Virus record (IMG/VR): IMGVR_UViG_3300009702_000045
Location: 1-41,352 of that record
Direction: 5' to 3' (one strand)
Length of the DNA stretch: 41,352 nt
From: a virus
Shown here: positions 4,968-39,679 of the stretch, piece by piece
Position numbering within the stretch: the stretch's first letter is position 1
How the letters are laid out: every line of letters begins with the position of its first letter
Notes under the pieces: model-generated
The model's input: only the letters and a program-made list of their open reading frames with translations
The model's database searches: none
What the model was told of the DNA's origin: nothing
Program-made: the position numbers and the translations under genes

Positions 4968-5410
4968 TGACCAAAGAGCCCATAAGCTTCTTTACATTCC
5001 AGAGTAAGACTACCTTCATTCCACTTAGGTATGTCTACGGGGAATGTATGGTCCTGATTGAAGATCATCCTAAGATGTTTCCTCTGAAATGCTTCATAGA
5101 GGATGGATGCCCCGTAAACGCTAATTGTGGGGATATTATAGTCCGTAGGATTCATTACTTATTTGAAGAAGTGATGAAATCATCTGAGATGATTATATGC
5201 TACTATAGGTATAGGGACCGGCCAAAGTCTATTCGTGGAGCTATCTTCAATCGTAATCTTGACCCGCCTGGAATAAGCATACTTAATCCCTATGCATTCT
5301 CAAAATTCCAACGTGAGAGTATTACTTATCAATGGTTTCCTTCAGATGACTACTTGTTTATGGAGGGAAGTAAGGGTATTATACCTGTGGAGAGTCTAAT
5401 CCGTGAGTAA
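4967..5410 (+). CDS. Hypothetical protein
   Basis: The protein has 147 residues from the ATG that overlaps the endolysin stop (TAATG). It is mixed alpha/beta with many aromatics and several cysteines ('F-I-E-D-G-C-P-V-N-A-N-C', 'M-I-I-C-Y-Y-R-Y-R-D-R'). No known motif is recognised. The last 8 nt overlap the GTG start of the helicase gene, so it is probably translated together with it. Function unknown. Confidence 0.6.
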   Translation: MTKEPISFFTFQSKTTFIPLRYVYGECMVLIEDHPKMFPLKCFIEDGCPVNANCGDIIVRRIHYLFEEVMKSSEMIICYYRYRDRPKSIRGAIFNRNLDPPGISILNPYAFSKFQRESITYQWFPSDDYLFMEGSKGIIPVESLIRE

Positions 5411-7823
5411 GGCTAAGATTACAATATATGGTTCTCATGCCAAATTGACTGGCGACTATAACAAATACCGGGTAAGAGAAGTAACATCATATCCGGTGCA
5501 AGGCTATCAATTCTCCAAGGCATTCCAGAGAGGCAAATGGGATGGTAGGAAACACCTCTTTAGACCCCGTTCAGGGGCCTTTCCAAGCGGCCTGACAGGC
5601 GCTCTAAGGCGTTCCCTGGAGGAAGAGGGGGTAGAGGTCGAATTAGAGGATTTGAGGCCAGAACCACGCCCAGGTGGTCACGGTTTCGACCTAAAAGGTA
5701 TCGATTTTGAGCCTCCGTATGAATATCAGGAAGCTGCCTGTCAGCTTATGGTGACCCATAAGCAGGGCATCGTGAAGGTAGCCACGGGTGGTGGTAAGTG
5801 CTTGGGCCCAGAAACTCCGGTGTTGAAATATGACGGCACAGTAATATTGGCGGATCAGGTGAAGCCGGGTGATTTGCTTATGGGTCCCGACTCAAAGCCA
5901 CGTAAAGTATTATCTACTTGCACTGGCTGGTCTGATATATATAAGATTGTGCCCAATAAGGGAGAGCCGTTTAGGTGCAACGATGTGCATGTGCTGACTC
6001 TGAGGCATACGCAAACCGGGGAAGTTATTGATATTGGGCTTGATGAATATCAAAAGCAGAACCAAACATTCAAGCATTGTCATAAACTTTTTAGAGTAGG
6101 CACAGAGTTTGAGGAACGGGAAGTTCTCCTAGATCCGTACTTTGTTGGTTTGTGGATTGGTGATGGGCGCAAAGATTTATCCCAGGGAATCCAGATTACG
6201 AATATAGATGATGAGATAGTTTCTTTCTTGAAGGAGTTTGCCAAGAGCCAGGATTGCGGGCTAAGCGAATACATCTACCCAGACCGTTGTCCCACATATG
6301 GCATAGTTACCCCTCGGGGTAAGATCAATCCTGTGTTGGACAGTATGCGGGAGTTGTTTCCAAAGACTCGTATCCCTAGGGATTACCTTATAAACTCAAG
6401 AGACAGGAGACTACAGCTTCTGGCTGGTATTGTAGATTCGGACGGATATTGGAGCGGGAAGAATATAGATCTCGTACAGTCTCGAAAAGAACTAGCTGAG
6501 GATATAGTGTTCCTGGCAAGGTCCCTTGGGTATCATAGCTCTCTAGGTGACAAGATCATAAACGGAGAAACCTACTGGAGAGTTTATATTTCAGGAGATA
6601 CACTTTCGGAAATTCCTGTAAGACTAGAGAGAAAGAAGCCCAGAGACATTATAGGTAGAAAAGCTACCAATACTGGGTTTGCTGTAGAACACGAAGGACC
6701 GGGGCTTTATGTTGGGTGGACTTTAGACGTAGATGGTCGTTTTCTTCTTGGGGACTTTACAGTGACTCATAATACCGAGATAGCCTGCGCTGTCACTAAA
6801 TATTTAGGATTGAAGACCCTATTCTTGGTTCCGTCCAGAGAGCTGATGTATCAGTCTCAGAAAAGGTTTATAAAGCGTTTGGAGCTTTCGGAGGATGAGG
6901 TAGGCATTGTGGGGGATGGCAAGTGGCAACCAGGTAGCTTTGTCACAGTAGCCAGTATCCAGACTCTAGAAGCTCGAATGAATACACCAGAAGCCCAGCA
7001 TTTAATTGAAAGTGCAGAGGTTTTGTTCCTAGATGAGTGCCATGGTGTGGGCAGCGATACTTACTACACAGTGGCAACTCTGTGCCCCGCATACTATCGC
7101 TACGGTTTATCGGCCACCCCTCTGGACCGCACTGATGGTGCCAATCTCATGCTTATAGCAGCCACCGGAGAGATGCTGATAGATATCCCCTTGAAGGAGC
7201 TTGTAGAGCGGGGCATCAACCCTGGCGCTGACATCATTTTTGATAAGGTTACTGAGCCGGTCCTAAAGAAGAACTGCCGCTATCCCACTGCATATAAGAA
7301 GGGCGTGTCTGAGAATGAACAACTTCTCGACAAGGTAGTAGAGTGGGCTGAGATATTTGCTAACCAGGGCCTCAACGTCCTTATCCTGTGCGAGGAGATT
7401 CAGCATGGTAAGACTATAGATGAAGCTCTGTGGAACAAGCCGTCCAAAATGATACCTCATCAGTTTATCCACGGCACTGAAGATACCGATATTCGTCAGG
7501 GCGCTCTTGAAAGCTTCTCTAAGCGCCGTCTTCCAGTTCTTATAGCTTCTACCATTCTCGACCAGGGGGTAGACACTGATGCTATTGATGCCCTCATACT
7601 CGCAGGCAGTCGCAAGTCTAAGATTAAGACTCTTCAGCGCCTAGGCCGAGGGCTTAGAGGCAAGAAGCTTATTGTGGTTGAATTTTCCAACTTTTGCCAC
7701 AAGTATCTTTTGGAGCACTCATACCAGCGTCTTTGTGATTATAAAAATGAAGAATGCTTTCCTATTCATTCATCCGGCCCAGATGCAGAATTAGTGCGCA
7801 AGCTCTGGAACGATCAAGACTAA
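5403..7823 (+). CDS. uvsW-like: UvsW-like superfamily 2 DNA helicase interrupted by an intein
   Basis: This 806-residue precursor becomes a 481-residue helicase after removal of intein residues 133-457. The N-terminal 90 residues resemble the UvsW DNA-binding domain ('G-Y-Q-F-S-K-A-F-Q-R-G-K-W-D-G-R'). Helicase motifs are clear: Walker A A-T-G-G-G-K split by the intein before T; motif II D-E-C-H (544-547); motif III S-A-T-P (about 570); motif VI Q-R-L-G-R-G-L-R (745-752). In T4, UvsW unwinds R-loops and branched DNA and switches off origin-dependent replication. The GTG start overlaps the upstream gene by 8 nt. The helicase is inactive until splicing restores the ATP-binding loop (inference). 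Confidence 0.88.
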   Translation: MSKAKITIYGSHAKLTGDYNKYRVREVTSYPVQGYQFSKAFQRGKWDGRKHLFRPRSGAFPSGLTGALRRSLEEEGVEVELEDLRPEPRPGGHGFDLKGIDFEPPYEYQEAACQLMVTHKQGIVKVATGGGKCLGPETPVLKYDGTVILADQVKPGDLLMGPDSKPRKVLSTCTGWSDIYKIVPNKGEPFRCNDVHVLTLRHTQTGEVIDIGLDEYQKQNQTFKHCHKLFRVGTEFEEREVLLDPYFVGLWIGDGRKDLSQGIQITNIDDEIVSFLKEFAKSQDCGLSEYIYPDRCPTYGIVTPRGKINPVLDSMRELFPKTRIPRDYLINSRDRRLQLLAGIVDSDGYWSGKNIDLVQSRKELAEDIVFLARSLGYHSSLGDKIINGETYWRVYISGDTLSEIPVRLERKKPRDIIGRKATNTGFAVEHEGPGLYVGWTLDVDGRFLLGDFTVTHNTEIACAVTKYLGLKTLFLVPSRELMYQSQKRFIKRLELSEDEVGIVGDGKWQPGSFVTVASIQTLEARMNTPEAQHLIESAEVLFLDECHGVGSDTYYTVATLCPAYYRYGLSATPLDRTDGANLMLIAATGEMLIDIPLKELVERGINPGADIIFDKVTEPVLKKNCRYPTAYKKGVSENEQLLDKVVEWAEIFANQGLNVLILCEEIQHGKTIDEALWNKPSKMIPHQFIHGTEDTDIRQGALESFSKRRLPVLIASTILDQGVDTDAIDALILAGSRKSKIKTLQRLGRGLRGKKLIVVEFSNFCHKYLLEHSYQRLCDYKNEECFPIHSSGPDAELVRKLWNDQD
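5799..6773 (+). mobile_element. LAGLIDADG intein in the helicase Walker A motif
   Basis: A 325-residue intein covers residues 133-457 of the precursor. It begins with Cys ('C-L-G-P-E-T-P-V-L') and ends in 'V-T-H-N', followed by Thr+1, the canonical splice residues. Block B is 'F-R-C-N-D-V-H-V-L'. Two DOD homing-endonuclease motifs are visible, 'F-V-G-L-W-I-G-D-G' and 'L-L-A-G-I-V-D-S-D-G', so the endonuclease looks intact. Insertion lies exactly between Lys132 of the Walker A loop and the following Thr. Homing into a conserved codon stretch makes precise loss rare. Confidence 0.93.
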
Positions 7824-7839
7824 AATGATATACTGAGAT

Positions 7840-8277
7840 ATGAGAGCTGTCCGAATTCAAGACCTAAATCCTCCCGATGAAGTTTATGGATATATGAGGC
7901 TTGGAATGGCTGTCACGAAGGTTCGTAGGGTAGATGGATCTCTATATGCGGTAGTCCCCAACAAGCCCCAAAAGGCAGGTCCTGATGACCTTACTAGGTT
8001 TCAAGGTGTGGTCGTTAATAATAATACTGATGAACAAGTACTAACGCTATATATCACAAGCACTGACTCAATGATGAGGGCTATGAACAAATCCCAGTCT
8101 CGTTTACGTGTAGATATTCACTATAGCGCGTTTAGACGCCTTAGACTTATCAGCCAAATTAACTATCCACCCCACGATTTTAATTACACGTTTCCCGCTA
8201 ACTTTGAAGACGCTGCCTTCAAGCCGTACCGAACGTTTACTGAAGTTCTAATTCCAAGTTACGTTACTGGGGTATAA
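7840..8277 (+). CDS. Hypothetical protein
   Basis: The protein has 145 residues and appears beta-rich in the first half ('S-L-Y-A-V-V-P', 'G-V-V-V-N-N', 'V-L-T-L-Y-I-T'). The second half is basic and aromatic, with 'Y-P-P-H-D-F-N-Y'. No motif is recognised. It starts 16 nt after the helicase gene with only a weak ribosome site, and its stop overlaps the next ATG (TAATG). It opens the string of coupled replication genes that leads to the replicative helicase. Function unknown. Confidence 0.6.
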   Translation: MRAVRIQDLNPPDEVYGYMRLGMAVTKVRRVDGSLYAVVPNKPQKAGPDDLTRFQGVVVNNNTDEQVLTLYITSTDSMMRAMNKSQSRLRVDIHYSAFRRLRLISQINYPPHDFNYTFPANFEDAAFKPYRTFTEVLIPSYVTGV

Positions 8278-8765
8278 TGACTGTGGTTCCAGGGCCAAGC
8301 GATTTCTTTCGCCTTATCAATACACCATCTGCAGTACGTAAGTGGTTGAGATATGATATTCCTACTGAGTATCGCTACTATGATCAGAACGAAGATCACG
8401 TAGGGCATTGGCACGTTCATAGCAAATATTTACTTCAAGTCATTGAACTAGCATATAGGACCTCAGGGCCTGTTGACTACTCCTCCTTAGATGATTATGT
8501 TCAAATGGACATAGCTCGTGCTAAGGAAGGGTGGACGATGCACCAGAAAAGTAAGGCTGATAGACTCAAAATAAACTCCTCCTCCCCAACTCTAAAAGAC
8601 TCTTATGCGACTTTACATCTCCTTCCTACTGCATCTTCTAGCGTTGTTTCTGCTGCTTGGCGTTGCCTCGCAAAAGAGACCCATCCTGATCGTGGGGGTG
8701 ATGCTGAGCTATTTCGCAAGTATAGCGAGGCATATCGTAAAATCATGGAAGAAGAGAAGAAATGA
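8277..8765 (+). CDS. J-domain (DnaJ-like) protein
   Basis: The protein has 162 residues. The N-terminal 100 residues are unrecognised, with 'D-H-V-G-H-W-H-V-H'. The C-terminal part (about 108-157) is a J domain: a 'Y-A-T-L-H-L' entry, helix II, the diagnostic H-P-D at 136-138 followed by R-G-G-D, and a helix III ending 'Y-R-K-I-M'. J domains stimulate the ATPase of Hsp70 (DnaK). The domain is C-terminal, whereas DnaJ has it at the N-terminus, and no Gly/Phe or zinc region is present. Its position two genes before the replicative helicase suggests recruitment of host DnaK to remodel replication complexes (inference). It overlaps both neighbours by 1-4 nt. Confidence 0.8.
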   Translation: MTVVPGPSDFFRLINTPSAVRKWLRYDIPTEYRYYDQNEDHVGHWHVHSKYLLQVIELAYRTSGPVDYSSLDDYVQMDIARAKEGWTMHQKSKADRLKINSSSPTLKDSYATLHLLPTASSSVVSAAWRCLAKETHPDRGGDAELFRKYSEAYRKIMEEEKK

Positions 8766-9397
8766 CAGAGCATATCTTAGAGCTGCTGAGGAAAAAGAAG
8801 CTAGCCTCGATACGACAGAAGAAAGCCTTCAGGAAAAAGAAGATTGAGGAGTTTGAGACTAAACAGTCTAGCGTAAAGAGAATTATCGATGGTGAGAACC
8901 AATATAGCGCCGTTCCCGTCGAACTTACTATGCTGCGGGATCTTTACTTCAGGATGATCAATGTTTATAGTGGTCGGGTAAAGTACTATATGGATGAGAT
9001 GACGGACGGGCAGGTAGCTCTGTGGATCCGGGTCGAAAAGGCTCGTCGTGAAGCTGATGTTAGCCCAGAGCGATATCTGAAGGCTCAGTTCGTCTTTTTT
9101 GATAAAGCTTTTGGAACATATCCAAAGACCAAGCACCTAGCTACAGAGAAAGCTATTGAGCGTGCTAAGACTTACGAGGGCAAGACTGAGGGCAGAGTGT
9201 TAGGCAATATGCGCCCACCAGACCTTGACAAAGCAGATGTATTCAGGCAGAGTGAGAAGTTGCTACAGAAGATGATGAATGCACAGAACTGTACGAGAGA
9301 GCAGTTTTATAAAAGGTTCGTGTTGACAGGCGTCTATACGTTCCCTAAAGAGTTCATGGAAGCAGATCCTGCTTATCAGGCTGCTAAAGAGGGGTAA
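8762..9397 (+). CDS. Hypothetical protein between J-domain protein and helicase
   Basis: The protein has 211 residues. It has a very basic N-terminal helix (Lys/Arg-rich, about 8-42), then mostly helical sequence with 'M-T-D-G-Q-V-A-L-W-I-R' and 'F-D-K-A-F-G-T-Y-P-K'. No family is recognised. It overlaps the J-domain gene by 4 nt (ATGA), and the helicase ATG follows its stop directly. Size, basic character and position would suit a helicase-loading factor comparable to T4 gp59 (217 residues), but I see no clear sequence similarity. That role is only a contextual hypothesis. Confidence 0.6.
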   Translation: MTEHILELLRKKKLASIRQKKAFRKKKIEEFETKQSSVKRIIDGENQYSAVPVELTMLRDLYFRMINVYSGRVKYYMDEMTDGQVALWIRVEKARREADVSPERYLKAQFVFFDKAFGTYPKTKHLATEKAIERAKTYEGKTEGRVLGNMRPPDLDKADVFRQSEKLLQKMMNAQNCTREQFYKRFVLTGVYTFPKEFMEADPAYQAAKEG

Positions 9398-11596: not shown

Positions 11597-11814
11597 TGTA
11601 TTTTAGTAAAGAGTGGGGCCACGAGATCATGGGTAGGAAATCCAACCGGATTAGTCTGGGGGGCGGTTACACCAAGCGAGGGAAGCGTAGATACCTACTA
11701 CTCTCCCTCCGTATGTGGGTGCCCTACTTTTCGTTTAGTTACTTACCCTGGCGATTCGATGATTTCAAGTACATTTGGATTTACCTAGAGGAAAAAGACG
11801 TTGGCTTTGGATAA
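11596..11814 (+). CDS. Small basic hypothetical protein (72 aa)
   Basis: The ATG is coupled to the previous stop (TAATG). The product has a Gly-rich basic region ('S-L-G-G-G-Y-T-K-R-G-K-R') and then an aromatic segment (Trp, Tyr, Phe; about 37-60). The 3' end overlaps the primase start by 14 nt and carries that gene's ribosome site. No known family. Confidence 0.55.
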   Translation: MYFSKEWGHEIMGRKSNRISLGGGYTKRGKRRYLLLSLRMWVPYFSFSYLPWRFDDFKYIWIYLEEKDVGFG

Positions 11815-12892
11815 TCTCCGCGTACTCCGTAAGATCCGCAAGGAATTTGACTACCAGGACTACCTGGATAGTACCGTACCTGTAAAATACTCGGGCAACG
11901 GTGAGTTGCGGGTTTGTTGCCCTAACTGCTTGGACCGCAGCTACAAGCTATACGTCAACAACGACACAAAAAGGTTTAATTGCTTCAAATGTGATTTCAA
12001 TAACGGAAACTTCGATGTATTCGATTTCGTATCTCAATTTGAAGGAATAACAAGAGCCCAAGCCATGATGCGGCTGGCTAGGGAGTATGCCGAGATAGCT
12101 CCCTCATGGGAGAGCATCATAGAGGCATGCAAAACTGGGATTTATGTAGATGAAGACGTGCCTAATGCATCCAGGAAAATCAAAACGATTCGAGCTATGC
12201 CCCAAGGCTCAATGCCTCTAACAGACAAGGATGATCCGGAACAAAAGCCATTTTGGGATTATCTACTTAAGCGAGGCTTTACCGAGGGGGAAATCACCGC
12301 CGTCAAGTCACACTATGTCCCTGCTGAACATTTATTTATCAAGGATGCCAATAATAAGATTCGAGGGAATATTGGACGTAGAGTGTTGTTCCCGGTATAC
12401 GGAGGAGACAATGATTTAGTGTCTTGGTTAGCACGAGCTACAGATGACAGACCCCCTAAGTATTTCAATGCACCAGACTCTGAGGCTTCTCGAACTTTAT
12501 GGCCTTATGTGCCTTGCCACGGTGATATGGGTATTATTGTTGAGGGACTTATAGATTCTCTCGCAGTACGTAGACATGGGTTCAACTCATATGCTACACT
12601 AGGTAAGAAGATATCTTATGACCAGATTGAACTATTGAAGCATTGGGGCGTTACTGAGGTTGTATTGTTCTGGGATAAGAAAGATGCTAAGAAGGAGATG
12701 CTCAAAGCTATCGAAACTCTCAAGCTTCATTTTGACGATGTGCTAGTCCCTGATTTATCTCAGTGGCCAGCTGACAAAGACTCTGGGGATACGTTGAACT
12801 GGGAAGCAGGCGCTTTGCTTCTCAAAGACATGCTAACGCAAAAGCTGATTGACGTAAATTCCCTGGAGTTTGCAACGTGGCAACTAAGTTAG
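11801..12892 (+). CDS. DNA primase, DnaG/gp61-type (zinc finger + TOPRIM)
   Basis: The protein has 363 residues. The N-terminal zinc-binding domain shows C-P-N-C (40-43) and C-F-K-C (61-64). The TOPRIM core has 'I-V-E-G-L-I-D-S-L-A' with catalytic-type E248 and 'F-W-D-K-K-D' with D292. It would synthesise RNA primers with the DnaB-type helicase. The TTG start at 11801 is supported by an AGAGGA ribosome site at 11787-11792; no ATG lies in frame nearby. It is shorter than bacterial DnaG, as is typical of phage primases lacking a large helicase-binding domain. Confidence 0.85.
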   Translation: MALDNLRVLRKIRKEFDYQDYLDSTVPVKYSGNGELRVCCPNCLDRSYKLYVNNDTKRFNCFKCDFNNGNFDVFDFVSQFEGITRAQAMMRLAREYAEIAPSWESIIEACKTGIYVDEDVPNASRKIKTIRAMPQGSMPLTDKDDPEQKPFWDYLLKRGFTEGEITAVKSHYVPAEHLFIKDANNKIRGNIGRRVLFPVYGGDNDLVSWLARATDDRPPKYFNAPDSEASRTLWPYVPCHGDMGIIVEGLIDSLAVRRHGFNSYATLGKKISYDQIELLKHWGVTEVVLFWDKKDAKKEMLKAIETLKLHFDDVLVPDLSQWPADKDSGDTLNWEAGALLLKDMLTQKLIDVNSLEFATWQLS

Positions 12893-14547: not shown

Positions 14548-14672
14548 TGCTTGAGGGTTGAAAATACGATCTGGTAAACCAGGTCCCCATTGGATACAGA
14601 GAGGGTCTTGAGGGGTCCAAGCTGTTTCTCGTCCACACTCCGCACGAGTGGGAGGCGTTCTATGAGTACTTG
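14547..14672 (+). other. Upstream in-frame extension of the polymerase gene, broken by TGA
   Basis: From ATG 14547 (coupled to the previous stop) the frame runs straight into the polymerase, interrupted only by TGA at codon 5 (14559-14561). Residues after the stop ('K-L-F-L-V-H-T-P-H-E-W', then the exonuclease start) look like the normal N-terminus of phage PolA proteins, so the ancestral start was probably 14547 with a sense codon such as TGG at position 5. If the stop is real, translation must begin later, at 14670 (TTG) or 14673 (ATG), neither of which has a well-spaced ribosome site. Confidence 0.6.
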
Positions 14673-17600
14673 ATGAGTAAGAAGCTCGTTGCGTGCGATA
14701 CTGAGACGGATGGGTTTCGCTATTATCAGGGCAATAAGATTGTGGGTATGTCCTTCGGATGGCAAAAGGAGCATTTCTACGTTCCGGTTCGTCACTCTGA
14801 CTCTAGGCTAGGGGGAACACAACCATCCCAGCTAGATATGAACATGATACGTCCACAGCTTCAGGAGTTCTTCTCTCAGAATGATGTATTTATTATTTTA
14901 CACAATGCCAAGTTCGATATGCACTTCTACAAAGCTGACGACATTGAGATCAAGACGCCCTTCCACGACACAACCTTCCTGTGGCACCTATATGATGAGA
15001 ATGCTCCAGCCGCCCTTAAGGTAATCTCTTCTGGGTGGACAGATGATATGAAGCATAGACACAAGGGCCTGTTTGGCCCCGAGGCTGCTGCTAACGAGAA
15101 GAAGCTAGGTGCGTGGCGTATTGCGGAGGCTAAGGCTAGACGCGAATATTTCAAGAGCCTAGTAATGTCACGCGCTGATGAGCTTCAGACGAGTTTGGAG
15201 CACCAGGACAAGAAGCGTTCGGTTTTGAAGAACTGGATTATTGCTAATGAGTTAGCGGGGCATATAGATAATAAGGTTGGTAAAGAGGATATTCACTATG
15301 GATACGTGCCGATCGAGATGATGACTGAGTACGCCGCCATTGATACCTTCCTGACCTACGCCCTGTATGAACATGTCATGGATAAGTTAGATATGAATTC
15401 TGATATCGCTAAGGTGTATCTCAATGAGCTAAAGCTTTGCAAGGCCCTACTAGAGATTGAGGAGCATGGAGCCCTTATTGACGTTCCTTACCTGAAGGTA
15501 TTGGAGAACGAGCTTGCACAAGAATGTAAGGAGACCGAGAATAGGATTTACAAATTCTTTGGTAAGCAGTTCAATCTTGGCTCAACTACTCAGCTGGCAG
15601 AAGCTCTTATCGAGAAGGGAGTCCCGCTAACCAAGACTACAGCTTCCGGTAGGTTTGCTACCGATAAGAAGGTCTTGAAGTCTCTTGCTAAAGACCATGC
15701 TGGTGTGAAGGATATTCTTACTCTTCGTGAATCCCAGAAGATCATGAACACATACGCCATTGGGATTCAGGACTTGGTTGAGAATGACTACATTCACATG
15801 AGTTTCAACCAGAACGTATCCACAGGTCGAATGAGCTGCCGTGATCCCAACGTCCAGAATATACCACGAAACGATACTCGTATCCGTAAAGCTTTCATTT
15901 GCCCAGATAACCATTACTTTGTGTTTGCTGACTATTCCCAGGTTGAAGTCAGACTAACCGCCCATTTCTCTGAAGATCCTATTATGCTGGATGCCTACAG
16001 TAAGGGGCAGGACATTCATTCTCGTACTGCTTGCGAGATGTTCGCTATTCCTTATGATGAGCTGATCAAGGTGCTCGGAAATGATGAGCACGAGATGTAC
16101 AAGAAGTATAAAGAATTACGATCTGTGGCAAAGTGTGTTCATCCCTCCACCATTATAAATACGAGCAATGGATTGAGGAGGCTAGATCAACTATTATCTT
16201 TCCCAGAAGAAAAAGACTCTTTTGGGTCGGTGTCTTCCCCTCAACAAGTTTTAGATGAAAATAATCAATTTGTAGATATTACCCAAACCTATAATGGTGG
16301 CACCAAAGATTTGTTGCATGTCGTAACCAATAGAGGAACATTGACTTGTAGTAAAAACCATAAGTTTGTGCTAAGTGATACTAGACAAGTTAGGGCGGAA
16401 GAATTGAAAGTTACCACAGAGCTTCCAAACCCGGAGTTCTATTCGCCAGAAGTGGAAAATGCGCCAAAAACAGTAGGAGTTATCTACAGACCTTATAAAG
16501 ATGCTCCAGAGTGCGAGTACAATGCCACTGGTCAAATGGCATATATTGCGGGCGCATTTATGGGAGATGGAAGCGTTTGCGGGGCACATACAGTGTGTAT
16601 AACTCATGGAGATATCAAAAAACAAGGTACAATTTCTATAAGTTTTCAAGAATGGCAAAGAATATTATTCAATGAAATACAGAAAGCGGACTTGAGACCT
16701 GTATGTCGTGATAAATCTATATATCTAGGTAGCAGATCAGTTCTTAGGTTTTTCGAGGCTCTTAAGTTGGTTGACACCACAAGAGAACTAAAATCTTCTT
16801 CACAAAAGTCTTTTAGAATACCTTCTTGGGTTTTGAGTGGGGGCAAAGAGTTTATTTCAGAGTTTATTGCGGGTCTTATAGATACGGACGGTACTGTGAG
16901 CAAGGAAGGCATACTGTCTTTTACGACCTGTAGCGCTGTATTGGCTGGGCATATGTGTTCCTGTCTTTCTTATCTGGGTTTGAAGTTTACACAGGAGTTG
17001 TCCTATAACAAAGAGTATGACAAGAACTACTATAGAATTAGGCTACTAAAGGCAGATGGTGGCTACTTTAGGAGATATTTACGTCACACCGGAAAACGAA
17101 ACAGGCTACCTGAGCATAAATACGGTGTGTCTAAATTTAGAAAACCCTGCAGAGTTCTCGCCATACTGCCTGCGGGAAATCTTCCTTGCGTAGATATTGA
17201 AGTAAATTCTGATTCTCACCTGTATCGTGCAAACGGGTTTATAACCCATAATACCATCAACTTTGGCATTATCTATGGAGTAGGAGCACTTGGCCTTTCC
17301 ACTCAAATTGATCGTCCAGACCGCTACAAGGATGCTCCAGATAGTGAGTGGATCGCAGCTTGTCAAGAGTTTATTGACCAATACTTTAGGAAATATCGTG
17401 GTGTCAAACGTTTTGTGAACAAGTGTTCGCGCATCGCCCGTAACAAGGCTGAAATACCTAACCATTTCGGCAGGATTCGCCATCTGCCTCATATCAATGC
17501 TTATAAGATCCTTGGGAAAGAATATGGATGGATGAGTGGACGTGCTGAGCGTCAGGCTGGTAACTTCGTTGTCCAGTCTACAGCTGCGGACATTTTCAAG

Positions 17601-17822
17601 TTCGCAACGGTCAGGGTTCACGAGGAAGTGTTCAAAAATACAAATTCTATGATTGTAAACCTTGTGCATGACGAGATTCAGTCTTATATTCATAAGGACG
17701 AGCTAGATTTGCTCAATAAGAAGAGGGATGTGATGGAAGATTTCGACTTCTTGGTTCCCTTGAAAGTAGAATTCGCATACTCAACCACTAGTTGGGCCGC
17801 AAAGAAGGGACTAGCAGCATGA
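14670..17822 (+). CDS. polA-like: Family A DNA polymerase with 3'-5' exonuclease, interrupted by an intein
   Basis: The 1050-residue precursor loses intein residues 489-861, leaving about 677. The exonuclease domain shows Exo I D-T-E-T-D-G (10-15), Exo II-like 'I-L-H-N-A-K-F-D' (about 76-83) and Exo III-like 'Y-A-A-I-D-T-F' (about 220-226). The polymerase domain shows motif A 'F-A-D-Y-S-Q-V-E' with D421, motif B (O-helix) 'S-V-A-K ... T-I-N-F-G-I-I-Y-G' split by the intein, and motif C 'V-H-D-E-I' with D1001. It is the likely replicative polymerase. The T4-style neighbours would normally go with a family B enzyme. The true N-terminus probably lies upstream beyond an in-frame TGA. Confidence 0.92.
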   Translation: MMSKKLVACDTETDGFRYYQGNKIVGMSFGWQKEHFYVPVRHSDSRLGGTQPSQLDMNMIRPQLQEFFSQNDVFIILHNAKFDMHFYKADDIEIKTPFHDTTFLWHLYDENAPAALKVISSGWTDDMKHRHKGLFGPEAAANEKKLGAWRIAEAKARREYFKSLVMSRADELQTSLEHQDKKRSVLKNWIIANELAGHIDNKVGKEDIHYGYVPIEMMTEYAAIDTFLTYALYEHVMDKLDMNSDIAKVYLNELKLCKALLEIEEHGALIDVPYLKVLENELAQECKETENRIYKFFGKQFNLGSTTQLAEALIEKGVPLTKTTASGRFATDKKVLKSLAKDHAGVKDILTLRESQKIMNTYAIGIQDLVENDYIHMSFNQNVSTGRMSCRDPNVQNIPRNDTRIRKAFICPDNHYFVFADYSQVEVRLTAHFSEDPIMLDAYSKGQDIHSRTACEMFAIPYDELIKVLGNDEHEMYKKYKELRSVAKCVHPSTIINTSNGLRRLDQLLSFPEEKDSFGSVSSPQQVLDENNQFVDITQTYNGGTKDLLHVVTNRGTLTCSKNHKFVLSDTRQVRAEELKVTTELPNPEFYSPEVENAPKTVGVIYRPYKDAPECEYNATGQMAYIAGAFMGDGSVCGAHTVCITHGDIKKQGTISISFQEWQRILFNEIQKADLRPVCRDKSIYLGSRSVLRFFEALKLVDTTRELKSSSQKSFRIPSWVLSGGKEFISEFIAGLIDTDGTVSKEGILSFTTCSAVLAGHMCSCLSYLGLKFTQELSYNKEYDKNYYRIRLLKADGGYFRRYLRHTGKRNRLPEHKYGVSKFRKPCRVLAILPAGNLPCVDIEVNSDSHLYRANGFITHNTINFGIIYGVGALGLSTQIDRPDRYKDAPDSEWIAACQEFIDQYFRKYRGVKRFVNKCSRIARNKAEIPNHFGRIRHLPHINAYKILGKEYGWMSGRAERQAGNFVVQSTAADIFKFATVRVHEEVFKNTNSMIVNLVHDEIQSYIHKDELDLLNKKRDVMEDFDFLVPLKVEFAYSTTSWAAKKGLAA
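16134..17252 (+). mobile_element. LAGLIDADG intein in polymerase motif B
   Basis: A 373-residue intein begins with Cys ('C-V-H-P-S-T-I-I-N') and ends 'F-I-T-H-N', followed by Thr+1. Block B is 'T-C-S-K-N-H-K-F-V-L'. Two DOD endonuclease motifs, 'Y-I-A-G-A-F-M-G-D-G' and 'F-I-A-G-L-I-D-T-D-G', look intact. It sits between the catalytic Lys of the O-helix and the following Thr, so the polymerase cannot work until splicing. The DNA looks more AT-rich than the surrounding polymerase sequence, which suits a foreign origin. Confidence 0.93.
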
Positions 17823-37210: not shown

Positions 37211-38101
37211 ATGGGGACATATCTAGAAGAGCTTGAGGAGCTAGTAGCGGGGCCTTATTCCTGTGCTACAGCCTCAGTCCAGATAGCAGTTCAATCCTGC
37301 CTGGAGTTGTTGGGTACTAGGGTAGATGTTATTCCGGTGATTATGCCGGTCACTTCTGCACCAGATACTCTATCCGTAGTCTTGCGTGCTAGTGGGCATC
37401 CACTGCTCCTTGACATCGAGGATGAATACTTACAGATGGATCTAGAACAATTGCGAGATGCACTTGAGATGTTGGAGGAACAGAATCGAGTTCCGGTGAT
37501 CCTGTTTAACCAGCCCTTTAGAATGCCAGTTCGGAAAGAGCTACTTGAGTTAGTTTTGGACTATCCCAGTATAGTAGACAGTAGAATTGTGCCACATGAG
37601 CAACTTTCCGGCCCAGATATCCCCTGCACTTTCAATGTGTTTGATCTTTCCATTGTTTGTGGAGCTGGAGGTTTGATAATTCATAAGTTCCCAGAACAGG
37701 TAGACCAGCTGAAAATGGTGCGGAGTGGCCCTATGGGGTTAGACGGTGCCCTGCCAGAGATGCTGGCAGAGGAGGCTGCTGATGCCCAGAGCTACTGGCA
37801 GACTACACGAGAATACTATTGGGGAGAAGTTGAGAAGTTCATTGGCACTGAGCATCAAGTAATGGGGCCATCAACCGAACCTGGAGTAGTGTGGCTGAGA
37901 GTAGACAATGCTCGCAGAACAGCCGTCACCCTAAAGTCTTATGGAGTGGAGGCCGTTCTTGGTTTGGCTCCTTTATACAACATTGAAGAAGTGAAGCGCA
38001 GATATCGGGAAGAACCTGAATATCCTGTAACTAAAGCTTTAGAAAACAGTTTTGTGTGTTTCAATTATAGAGATATCGATAAGGCATTGAAAGTATTATG
38101 A
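37211..38101 (+). CDS. DegT/DnrJ/EryC1-like PLP-fold protein without visible Schiff-base lysine
   Basis: The protein has 296 residues, shorter than typical family members. The order of elements follows sugar aminotransferases: 'V-V-L-R-A-S-G-H-P-L-L-L-D-I' (about 57-70), 'V-P-V-I-L-F-N-Q-P' and 'S-I-V-D-S-R-I-V-P-H', then 'V-C-G-A-G-G-L-I-I-H', the equivalent of the 'T-G-E-G-G-A-V-V' strand. The lysine normally found a few residues before that strand is absent; the local sequence is 'F-D-L-S-I-V-C-G'. The protein may therefore be non-catalytic, or the family match may be remote. ATGA-coupled to the GIY-YIG gene. Confidence 0.55.
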   Translation: MGTYLEELEELVAGPYSCATASVQIAVQSCLELLGTRVDVIPVIMPVTSAPDTLSVVLRASGHPLLLDIEDEYLQMDLEQLRDALEMLEEQNRVPVILFNQPFRMPVRKELLELVLDYPSIVDSRIVPHEQLSGPDIPCTFNVFDLSIVCGAGGLIIHKFPEQVDQLKMVRSGPMGLDGALPEMLAEEAADAQSYWQTTREYYWGEVEKFIGTEHQVMGPSTEPGVVWLRVDNARRTAVTLKSYGVEAVLGLAPLYNIEEVKRRYREEPEYPVTKALENSFVCFNYRDIDKALKVL

Positions 38102-38862
38102 GTAAAATTTCTGGAATATATTGTATTACAAATGTTTCCAATGGAATGTTCTATTTAGGATCCAGTGTAGACATTGGACGAAGAAGATCTTCCCACTTTA
38201 GAGAGTTAAAGAAAGGTGTTCACGCTAATGAACATCTTCAGAGGTCTTTTATCAAATATGGAGAAAATAGTTTTGTTTTTTCCGTAGTAGAAACATGTCA
38301 TCCCGACCTTGTAAAATGTTTAGAAAACCTATTTTTAAATAGAGTCAAGATTTGCTGGGATTTATGCTTTAATATTTGTGACAAGTCTATTGGAGGACCA
38401 AGAATGGTGGCTGATAGGCATCCTATGTTTGGTAAAACTCATACAGAACAGACTCGAAGAAAACTAAGTAAAGCACATATAGGAAAAACACGTACCGAGG
38501 AACATAAACGCGCTATTAGTAAGGCTTTACAGAACAGAAGTTTTTCCAAGGAACACAAAATAGCCCTTTCTGAAGCTGCCAGCAATAGAATATACACAGA
38601 AAAAGAACGAGATAGATTTCGTGGAGAGAGTAATCACAGATATGGAAAATCTTTGTCTAAGGAACACAAAGCAAGAATTTCTACCTTATTTAGCAAGAAA
38701 ATAAGGAAATTAGAAAGCATAGGAACTCCAGTTGCTACGTATCCATCTTTGTCTGAGGCGGCTAAGTCTGTTGGGCTAGCGTCCGGTTCCCATATAGGAG
38801 AATGTGCCCGAGGACATAGAAAGACTGCAGGAGGTTTTCGTTGGGAGTTTATAGATGAATAA
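38098..38862 (+). CDS. GIY-YIG homing endonuclease with NUMOD repeats
   Basis: The protein has 254 residues. The catalytic domain shows 'S-G-I-Y-C-I-T-N', 'F-Y-L-G-S-S-V-D-I-G-R-R' and a conserved Glu in 'C-L-E-N-L-F'. Three NUMOD3-type DNA-binding repeats follow: 'M-F-G-K-T-H-T-E-Q-T-R-R', 'F-S-K-E-H-K-I-A-L-S' and 'Y-G-K-S-L-S-K-E-H-K'. A NUMOD1-like C-terminal module has 'S-L-S-E-A-A-K-S-V-G' and 'G-G-F-R-W-E-F'. The coding DNA is more AT-rich than its neighbours, consistent with a mobile origin. Overlaps the upstream gene by 4 nt and the downstream gene by 8 nt. Confidence 0.92.
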   Translation: MSKISGIYCITNVSNGMFYLGSSVDIGRRRSSHFRELKKGVHANEHLQRSFIKYGENSFVFSVVETCHPDLVKCLENLFLNRVKICWDLCFNICDKSIGGPRMVADRHPMFGKTHTEQTRRKLSKAHIGKTRTEEHKRAISKALQNRSFSKEHKIALSEAASNRIYTEKERDRFRGESNHRYGKSLSKEHKARISTLFSKKIRKLESIGTPVATYPSLSEAAKSVGLASGSHIGECARGHRKTAGGFRWEFIDE

Positions 38863-39679
38863 AAAACATGTCAAGATCCATAAAACTAAGATCGTAAAAA
38901 AGGAGTTGCTTTCAGAACACCCAAGAAACTCCAACAAGCAATCTCGCCATGTGTTCAAGGAGCTTAGGCAGAGTATACGTGAGCAAGGCTTTGACGAAAG
39001 CTTAATTGTTGTTCCGAAAGGAAATGAAGATCCAGGGTATTATATAGTTTCTGGAAACCATAGATTTAGAGCAGGAGTTGCGGAAGGTTTAGACGAGTTT
39101 CCAGTTGTACTAAGAGATGATTGGGATGAGGCAACTCAGCAAATAGAGATAATTCGTAGAAACTACGTCAGAGGCGAAATCAATAAGGATGCTTTCACTC
39201 TCGCAGTCAACGCCCTTGCTGCCGAGCAGGAGATGGATGTAGATGAAATTCGTGCGGCTATGGGTTTTGAGGACACGGAAGTATTCCTAGAGCTTTATAA
39301 GGAAGAAGAGGAGCGAGCAGAGGCTGCTCGTGCAGCCGCAGCCGAGCACCGTTCTAGCACTCCTAGCATCAATATGGTGGACGACTTGGGCGCTGTCCTT
39401 TCTGTCATTTTTGAACAGCATGGAGATACAGTTCCCTATAGTTTCCTGATCTTCCCTGCCGGAGGAAAGAATCACCTCTTTGTAGCCGCAACACCAGCTG
39501 TCCAGAGAAGTATGAGTAAGGTGGCAGAGTATTGCATAGCCAACCATCTCGATATCAATGTAGTTTTGGGGGGTTTATTGACTATTGGCCTTGCCCAGAG
39601 TAAGATGATAGAAGACAATAGTACTGAAGATGTTATTGAAAAAGGGTCTGTAGACCTAGGAGAAGACGTTGAATTCTAA
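38855..39679 (+). CDS. ParB-like nuclease-domain protein
   Basis: The protein has 274 residues. Residues of about 15-95 form a ParB/Srx domain ('E-H-P-R-N-S-N-K', 'L-R-Q-S-I-R-E-Q-G-F', 'S-G-N-H-R-F-R-A-G'). The 'G-N-H-R' matches the CTP/nucleotide-binding ParB box. Residues of about 120-165 include a Glu/Ala-rich helix; the C-terminal 110 residues are unrecognised and end acidic. Proteins of this kind are often found beside phage terminase genes, perhaps in genome recognition or packaging; its role here is unproven. Confidence 0.8.
   Translation: MNKKHVKIHKTKIVKKELLSEHPRNSNKQSRHVFKELRQSIREQGFDESLIVVPKGNEDPGYYIVSGNHRFRAGVAEGLDEFPVVLRDDWDEATQQIEIIRRNYVRGEINKDAFTLAVNALAAEQEMDVDEIRAAMGFEDTEVFLELYKEEEERAEAARAAAAEHRSSTPSINMVDDLGAVLSVIFEQHGDTVPYSFLIFPAGGKNHLFVAATPAVQRSMSKVAEYCIANHLDINVVLGGLLTIGLAQSKMIEDNSTEDVIEKGSVDLGEDVEF

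Follow-up and report, generated by a model that had tools for sequence, protein, structure and literature searches.

The role of DnaK in freeing phage helicases is known mainly from lambda, which borrows the DnaJ of its host. In T4, the gp41-type helicase is served by an all-helical loader of 217 aa, gp59. SV40 large T antigen ties a viral J domain to viral replicative helicase function within one polypeptide, a superfamily 3 helicase working in a eukaryotic host. Lambda P is evicted from DnaB by DnaK/DnaJ (PMC8215388), P1 RepA is monomerised by DnaK/DnaJ (PMC6391071), and host DnaK/DnaJ were pulled down by a lactococcal phage helicase (PMC8965321); T4 replication needs no DnaK/DnaJ/GrpE (PMC3486835). 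Rki (ORF057w) of phage RB43 was the first phage J protein to be characterised. Each of the three elements, namely J proteins of phages, helicase release with chaperone help, and replication blocks of the SPO1 type, is already known, and a literature search (with most subscription journals outside its scope) found no paper joining J domains with helicase loaders.

Here we describe a replication locus of an uncultivated phage, analysed over the full 41,352 bases of IMG/VR virus record IMGVR_UViG_3300009702_000045 (the window), in which the genes for a J protein, a 211-aa protein, and a DnaB-like helicase follow one another. Like the lambda O/P-DnaB system, it pairs a helicase of the DnaB family with a phage protein in the place of a loader and, as we propose, uses remodelling by a J domain and DnaK. 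Unlike lambda, the phage has its own J protein, its helicase is phage-encoded and SPO1/gp41-like, and its 211-aa protein has no family match to known loaders. Rki and the J protein of the window both have a J domain that is encoded by the phage and would be expected to work with host DnaK, but Rki (237 aa) carries it at the N terminus and acts on sigma32, whereas here it lies C-terminally behind another domain and within a replication operon. The 211-aa protein resembles T4 gp59 in its size, its all-helical model, and the type of helicase beside it; it differs in having no Pfam gp59 match in the members scanned, and in that T4 replicates independently of chaperones. The likeness to SV40 is that of a viral J domain tied to a viral helicase, with separate genes in the window.

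A related gene order is that of the Herelleviridae, where a UvsW-like helicase, a slot protein, and a DnaB-like helicase (gp19.5, gp20.1, and gp21.1 in SPO1) are followed by SbcCD, primase, and dUTPase, in several members after lysis genes. The window has the same UvsW-slot-helicase core followed by primase and dUTPase, except that SbcCD lies between helicase and primase in the Herelleviridae and further downstream in the window.

A conserved block within a replication operon

ORF calls with Pfam and PHROG scans showed that the plus strand of the window has the gene content of a tailed-phage replication region. An amidase gene precedes a UvsW-like helicase with an intein, a 145-aa protein, the J protein, the 211-aa protein, and the DnaB-like helicase (Table 1); primase, a dUTPase-like gene named by sequence alone, family A DNA polymerase (PolA), SSB, a UvsX-like recombinase, SbcD, SbcC, and a dNMP kinase come next, with terminase at the end. 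The operon is thus given over to replication throughout, from UvsW and DnaB through primase, dUTPase, PolA, SSB, and UvsX to SbcCD. The genes around the J gene are tightly packed: the 145-aa stop and the J start share 1 nt (TAATG), the J stop and the 211-aa start share 4 nt (ATGA), and the 211-aa stop directly abuts the helicase ATG (TAA, ATG). On sequence grounds, these three junctions look typical of translational coupling.

Table 1. Features of the J-domain locus and its surroundings (window coordinates; L-numbers denote related contigs)
Feature	Coordinates	Strand	Evidence
UvsW-like helicase, LAGLIDADG intein inside	5403..7823	+	phrog_16 E 1.5e-74; UvsW_N, Hom_end, LAGLIDADG_3 (Pfam)
145-aa protein directly 5' of J gene	7840..8277	+	no Pfam/PHROG family; also in L013, L051, L054
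J-domain protein, 162 aa, class III type	8277..8765	+	ORF; Pfam DnaJ E 4.5e-7; five lineages
J protein N-terminal beta/alpha domain, residues 1-75	8277..8501	+	model pLDDT about 85-94; 2fz4 alignment; kept in four lineages
J domain, residues 106-162	8592..8762	+	Pfam, profile match, fold match
HPD motif, residues 136-138, CAT CCT GAT	8682..8690	+	sequence; alignment
211-aa all-helical protein, candidate helicase loader	8762..9397	+	model; profile comparison; lineages
DnaB/T4 gp41-type replicative helicase, 473 aa	9398..10819	+	phrog_19 E 2.5e-76; DnaB_C E 1e-26; Herelleviridae top matches
DnaG-type primase, further downstream in the replication operon	11801..12892	+	phrog_47 E 2.9e-53

Searching viral and genome collections with a single helicase or 211-aa sequence returned no relatives; these were reached through the window PolA and then through alignments of two to four helicase and 211-aa members. 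They define five lineages, a small set, all from one group of uncultivated phages: the window, L012/L013 (near-identical, one virus in two samples, and counted once), L050 (whose contig begins inside the J gene and so contributes the J domain only), L051, and L054. Every related contig that covers the site has the order J, 211-aa protein, helicase (five of five lineages). This includes the most distant lineage, L051, whose J protein, 211-aa protein, and helicase are 38%, 32%, and 44% identical to those of the window. The 4-nt overlap between the J and 211-aa genes is found in the window, L012, L050, and L054, and is longer in L051. Pairwise pN/pS values, which are rough because synonymous sites are near saturation, were 0.37-0.57 for J, 0.30-0.61 for the 211-aa gene, and 0.24-0.49 for the helicase. 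The J gene is therefore under purifying selection, and recurrence in five lineages together with this selection shows that the arrangement is not due to chance.

Wherever a contig extends far enough (L013, L051, and L054), the 145-aa and UvsW-like genes precede J, so that the conserved unit consists of UvsW-like helicase, 145-aa protein, J protein, 211-aa protein, and helicase. The preliminary description had proposed a three-gene unit at 8277-9397, with J translationally coupled to the 211-aa gene and then to a DnaB-type helicase. The coupling holds, given the overlap and the abutting ATG, and both ORFs were placed exactly. That description would have been refuted by a trio not kept together; within this one phage group the trio is conserved, which is in its favour. 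The unit was drawn too small, in that the span omitted the helicase itself and the upstream part of the operon, including two members of the conserved run.

Other features of the region were also recorded. The 145-aa protein, without a Pfam or PHROG match, is a strongly kept member of the block: it is 94% identical between L013 and L054, with a pN/pS of 0.08 for that pair and a range of 0.08-0.54 overall. Two genes of the window contain LAGLIDADG homing-endonuclease inserts (inteins), that of the UvsW-like helicase and that of the family A DNA polymerase (14670-17822); the UvsW-like gene is uninterrupted in L051 and L054, and the polymerase is shorter and without the insert in L012 and L051. 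At 38098-39679, a homing endonuclease gene and then a ParB-like nuclease gene lie just 5' of the terminase large subunit.

Domain structure of the J protein

The C terminus of the J protein is a genuine J domain with an intact HPD, as the preliminary description had read it. Pfam DnaJ (PF00226) matches residues 108-162 above the family cut-off, a profile of the five members matches solved J domains with an E-value of 2.8e-8, and the predicted fold agrees with that of the J domain in 5nro, a structure with bound DnaK (Z 5.4, 51 residues). The HPD between helices II and III and the GG that follows it are invariant in the alignment of the five lineages. Neither the sequence nor the Pfam scan revealed a G/F-rich region, a zinc finger, or the DnaJ C-terminal domains, which corresponds to the class III type. 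To our knowledge, Hsp70 activation is the single established biochemical role of J domains and likewise of the HPD. In several relatives the J domain scores under the Pfam cut-off. Of the basic residues of helix II in E. coli DnaJ (R22, K26, and R27), the window J protein keeps only the equivalent of K26, as an arginine.

In the model of the whole protein (mean pLDDT 80.8), a beta/alpha domain at the N terminus is predicted well and is followed by a disordered linker (residues 90-110) and the J domain. This bears out the additional N-terminal domain that had been noted earlier. Both domains are under purifying selection, and the linker is not conserved. Across 50,697 phage records, matches to the protein were confined almost entirely to the J domain, stayed below 60% identity, and in no case spanned the greater part of the protein. 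The N-domain has no Pfam match and no sequence link to PDB chains. Its residues 25-81 align with the XPB damage-recognition domain 2fz4 (VIA-align, Z 5.1, 57 residues, rmsd 2.4 A); the XPB structures 2fz4 and 2fwr scored 5.0-5.1, MutS 4.7, and eIF1 5.2. We suspect an XPB-like fold from this weak resemblance; Z-scores near 5 are in the range of chance folds and do not establish kinship with XPB. The idea that the N-domain is a copy of the UvsW N-domain found no support in sequence, as hhalign against UvsW N-termini aligned just 21 residues.

A +1-frame ORF (8605-8847) overlaps the J gene and runs into the 211-aa gene. Its product would be short, with one hydrophobic stretch and a basic and then acidic tail, and it is open with an ATG at about the same place in the window, L012, L050, and L054 and absent in L051. 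We do not claim it as a hidden gene: synonymous resampling gave chance probabilities of openness of 0.02-0.40 per lineage, five of six pairs had no excess conservation, and the window-L054 pair had an excess in both alternative frames. Its openness is suggestive, but the ORF may simply follow from the J reading frame.

J genes of other phages do not represent the same module, as their neighbours differ. Microbacterium phage Lonelysoil (Squashvirus) encodes a C-terminal J-domain protein, gp47 (L058 3620-4252), near an exonuclease and a recombinase and with an unrelated N-terminal region.

The 211-residue protein and its probable Herelleviridae counterpart

HMMER scans gave the 211-aa protein no Pfam match and no significant PHROG match, and the 50,697 phage records contained no nucleotide match and no match to this protein. 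Pfam gp59 domains were absent from the members scanned, at E up to 1 or 10, and no member matched the curated Pfam/PHROG loader models (lambda P/DnaC-type). In its model the protein is helical throughout, with a first helix of 40 residues; no PDB fold matched it at Z 5 or above, and viral models gave weak matches only, a few of them labelled replication initiator.

The adjacent helicase is closest to those of the Herelleviridae (31% identity to that of Bacillus phage Goe26), and the 211-aa gene sits between UvsW-like and DnaB-like helicases as the slot-protein gene does, sharing this slot with the 145-aa and J genes. The slot protein is gp20.1 in SPO1 and elsewhere carries the name "Rep" or "HTH DNA binding protein"; in the accessible sources, the "Rep" label appears not to come from experiment. 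Plain HMMER gave no link between the two proteins, and the PHROG scan (phrog_14232/phrog_1098) was negative as well. In profile comparison, three members gave P of about 0.08-0.12. With seven members, hhalign aligned 94 co-linear residues about a Y-L-x-A-Q-F segment common to both proteins, at a P of 3.6e-4 and an HH-suite probability of only 37%; 13 members gave a P of 3.5e-3 over 55 residues with a probability of only 9%. In each of the latter two tests, 300 column-shuffled profiles all scored lower than the real one, and reversing the profile abolished the match; control profiles (J protein, helicase, UvsW N-terminus) were negative in the 13-member test. Because profile and position agree but the HH-suite probability is low, homology is likely, not proven. 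The 211-aa protein is thus probably related, remotely and in reduced form, to the Herelleviridae HTH/Rep slot protein.

The two differ in architecture. Slot proteins measure 257-579 aa and often have an N-terminal winged helix, seen in the long members, whereas the 211-aa protein has none and its model has the long N-terminal helix instead. SPO1 gp20.1 and EalM132 are too short for a winged helix, so this domain does not define the whole slot family. Each Herelleviridae subfamily examined has a slot protein, in a short form (257-262 aa) or long forms (399-579 aa, several annotated HTH), for example SPO1 gp20.1 (L066 2468-3241), A511 gp112 (L074 2468-4108), and Troll 112 (L067 1742-3481). Slot, remote homology, and position make it plausible that the 211-aa protein is a helicase loader, and the slot protein becomes a candidate loader for the Herelleviridae.

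None of the Herelleviridae examined has a J gene in the UvsW-DnaB slot. Because of this, and because T4 replicates without DnaK, the J protein is an addition to this helicase type and not a requirement of it. Two earlier claims change. The 211-aa protein, described as unrecognised, indeed matches no Pfam or PHROG family, but it is probably not an orphan. The analogy with lambda, whose host chaperones release the helicase from P, is weakened by a helicase nearest to the SPO1-like/T4 gp41-type, by the Herelleviridae slot without J, and by the DnaK independence of T4 (PMC3486835).

What the J protein may act on

As our best single guess, the J protein is a replication-dedicated class III J protein that brings host DnaK to the phage initiation or helicase complex; we give this a probability of roughly 0.45. 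The J domain would recruit host DnaK and trigger its ATPase, a partnership that the HPD suggests. Host DnaK is the expected partner, since the window and its relatives (13 partial records) yielded no phage DnaK, although one may lie elsewhere in the genomes. The lambda, P1, and lactococcal phage cases cited above are precedents. The N-domain, judging by its modelled fold, would probably contact nucleic acid or a replication protein and so place the J protein at the phage origin or fork. DnaK would then remodel the initiation complex, most likely the 211-aa protein and the helicase, and the helicase would be released or loaded. We favour a replication substrate because J is fixed between UvsW and the helicase and coupled to the 211-aa gene; it is this coupling that points to the substrate, and operon position alone does not name one. 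Against a replication role stand the Herelleviridae, which have related helicases and lack a slot J gene, and T4, which has a similar helicase and is DnaK-independent, as well as the thin basic patch of helix II, the remoteness of the 211-aa homology, and the restriction to one phage group. More specifically, and only tentatively, a J protein coupled to a reduced SPO1-type initiator or loader might bring host DnaK to the helicase. This would be a lambda-like, chaperone-driven release made up of unrelated components, in which the J protein has a domain of its own for contact with DNA.

An alternative we consider unlikely is a general host-takeover protein which, like RB43 Rki, binds host DnaK and frees sigma32 or redirects chaperones to the folding of phage proteins, its expression from an early replication operon being incidental. 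Rki, the sole characterised phage J protein, acts in this manner and not as a replication factor (PMC3486835), a role in folding and assembly has been predicted for the J proteins of jumbo phages (PMC7824862), and the neighbours of other phage J genes vary. Yet J keeps its position and its coupling to the 211-aa gene in all five lineages despite their divergence, and its architecture, with a C-terminal J domain and its own conserved N-domain, is unlike that of Rki.

XPB, UvsW, and HARP are grouped as annealing or fork-remodelling enzymes. This grouping is partly echoed in PMC3409536. In a distinctly unlikely reading, the J protein would have an N-domain of XPB/UvsW/HARP type and bind forks or junctions for UvsW-type recombination and fork remodelling, not helicase loading; DnaK would clear forks or recombination intermediates of bound proteins. 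The alignments with XPB and MutS and the UvsW-like gene two genes upstream of J, where contigs extend, are consistent with it; however, eIF1 scores equally in the same chance range, the N-domain lacks a sequence link to UvsW N-termini or PDB chains, and the coupling of J is with the 211-aa gene and not with UvsW. It is improbable that the J fold has been retained for another use (protein contact or DNA binding) with its DnaK function lost: the thin helix-II patch and the members below the Pfam cut-off would fit such a loss, but not an HPD, known only for Hsp70 activation, that is invariant in five lineages.

If the J protein is indeed dedicated to replication, virus-controlled recruitment of Hsp70 to replication would have arisen in bacterial viruses too, as with SV40 T antigen in animals. 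The locus would then also be a compact module open to experiment, and would give an initial clue to the function of the slot protein that occurs, so far uncharacterised, across the Herelleviridae.
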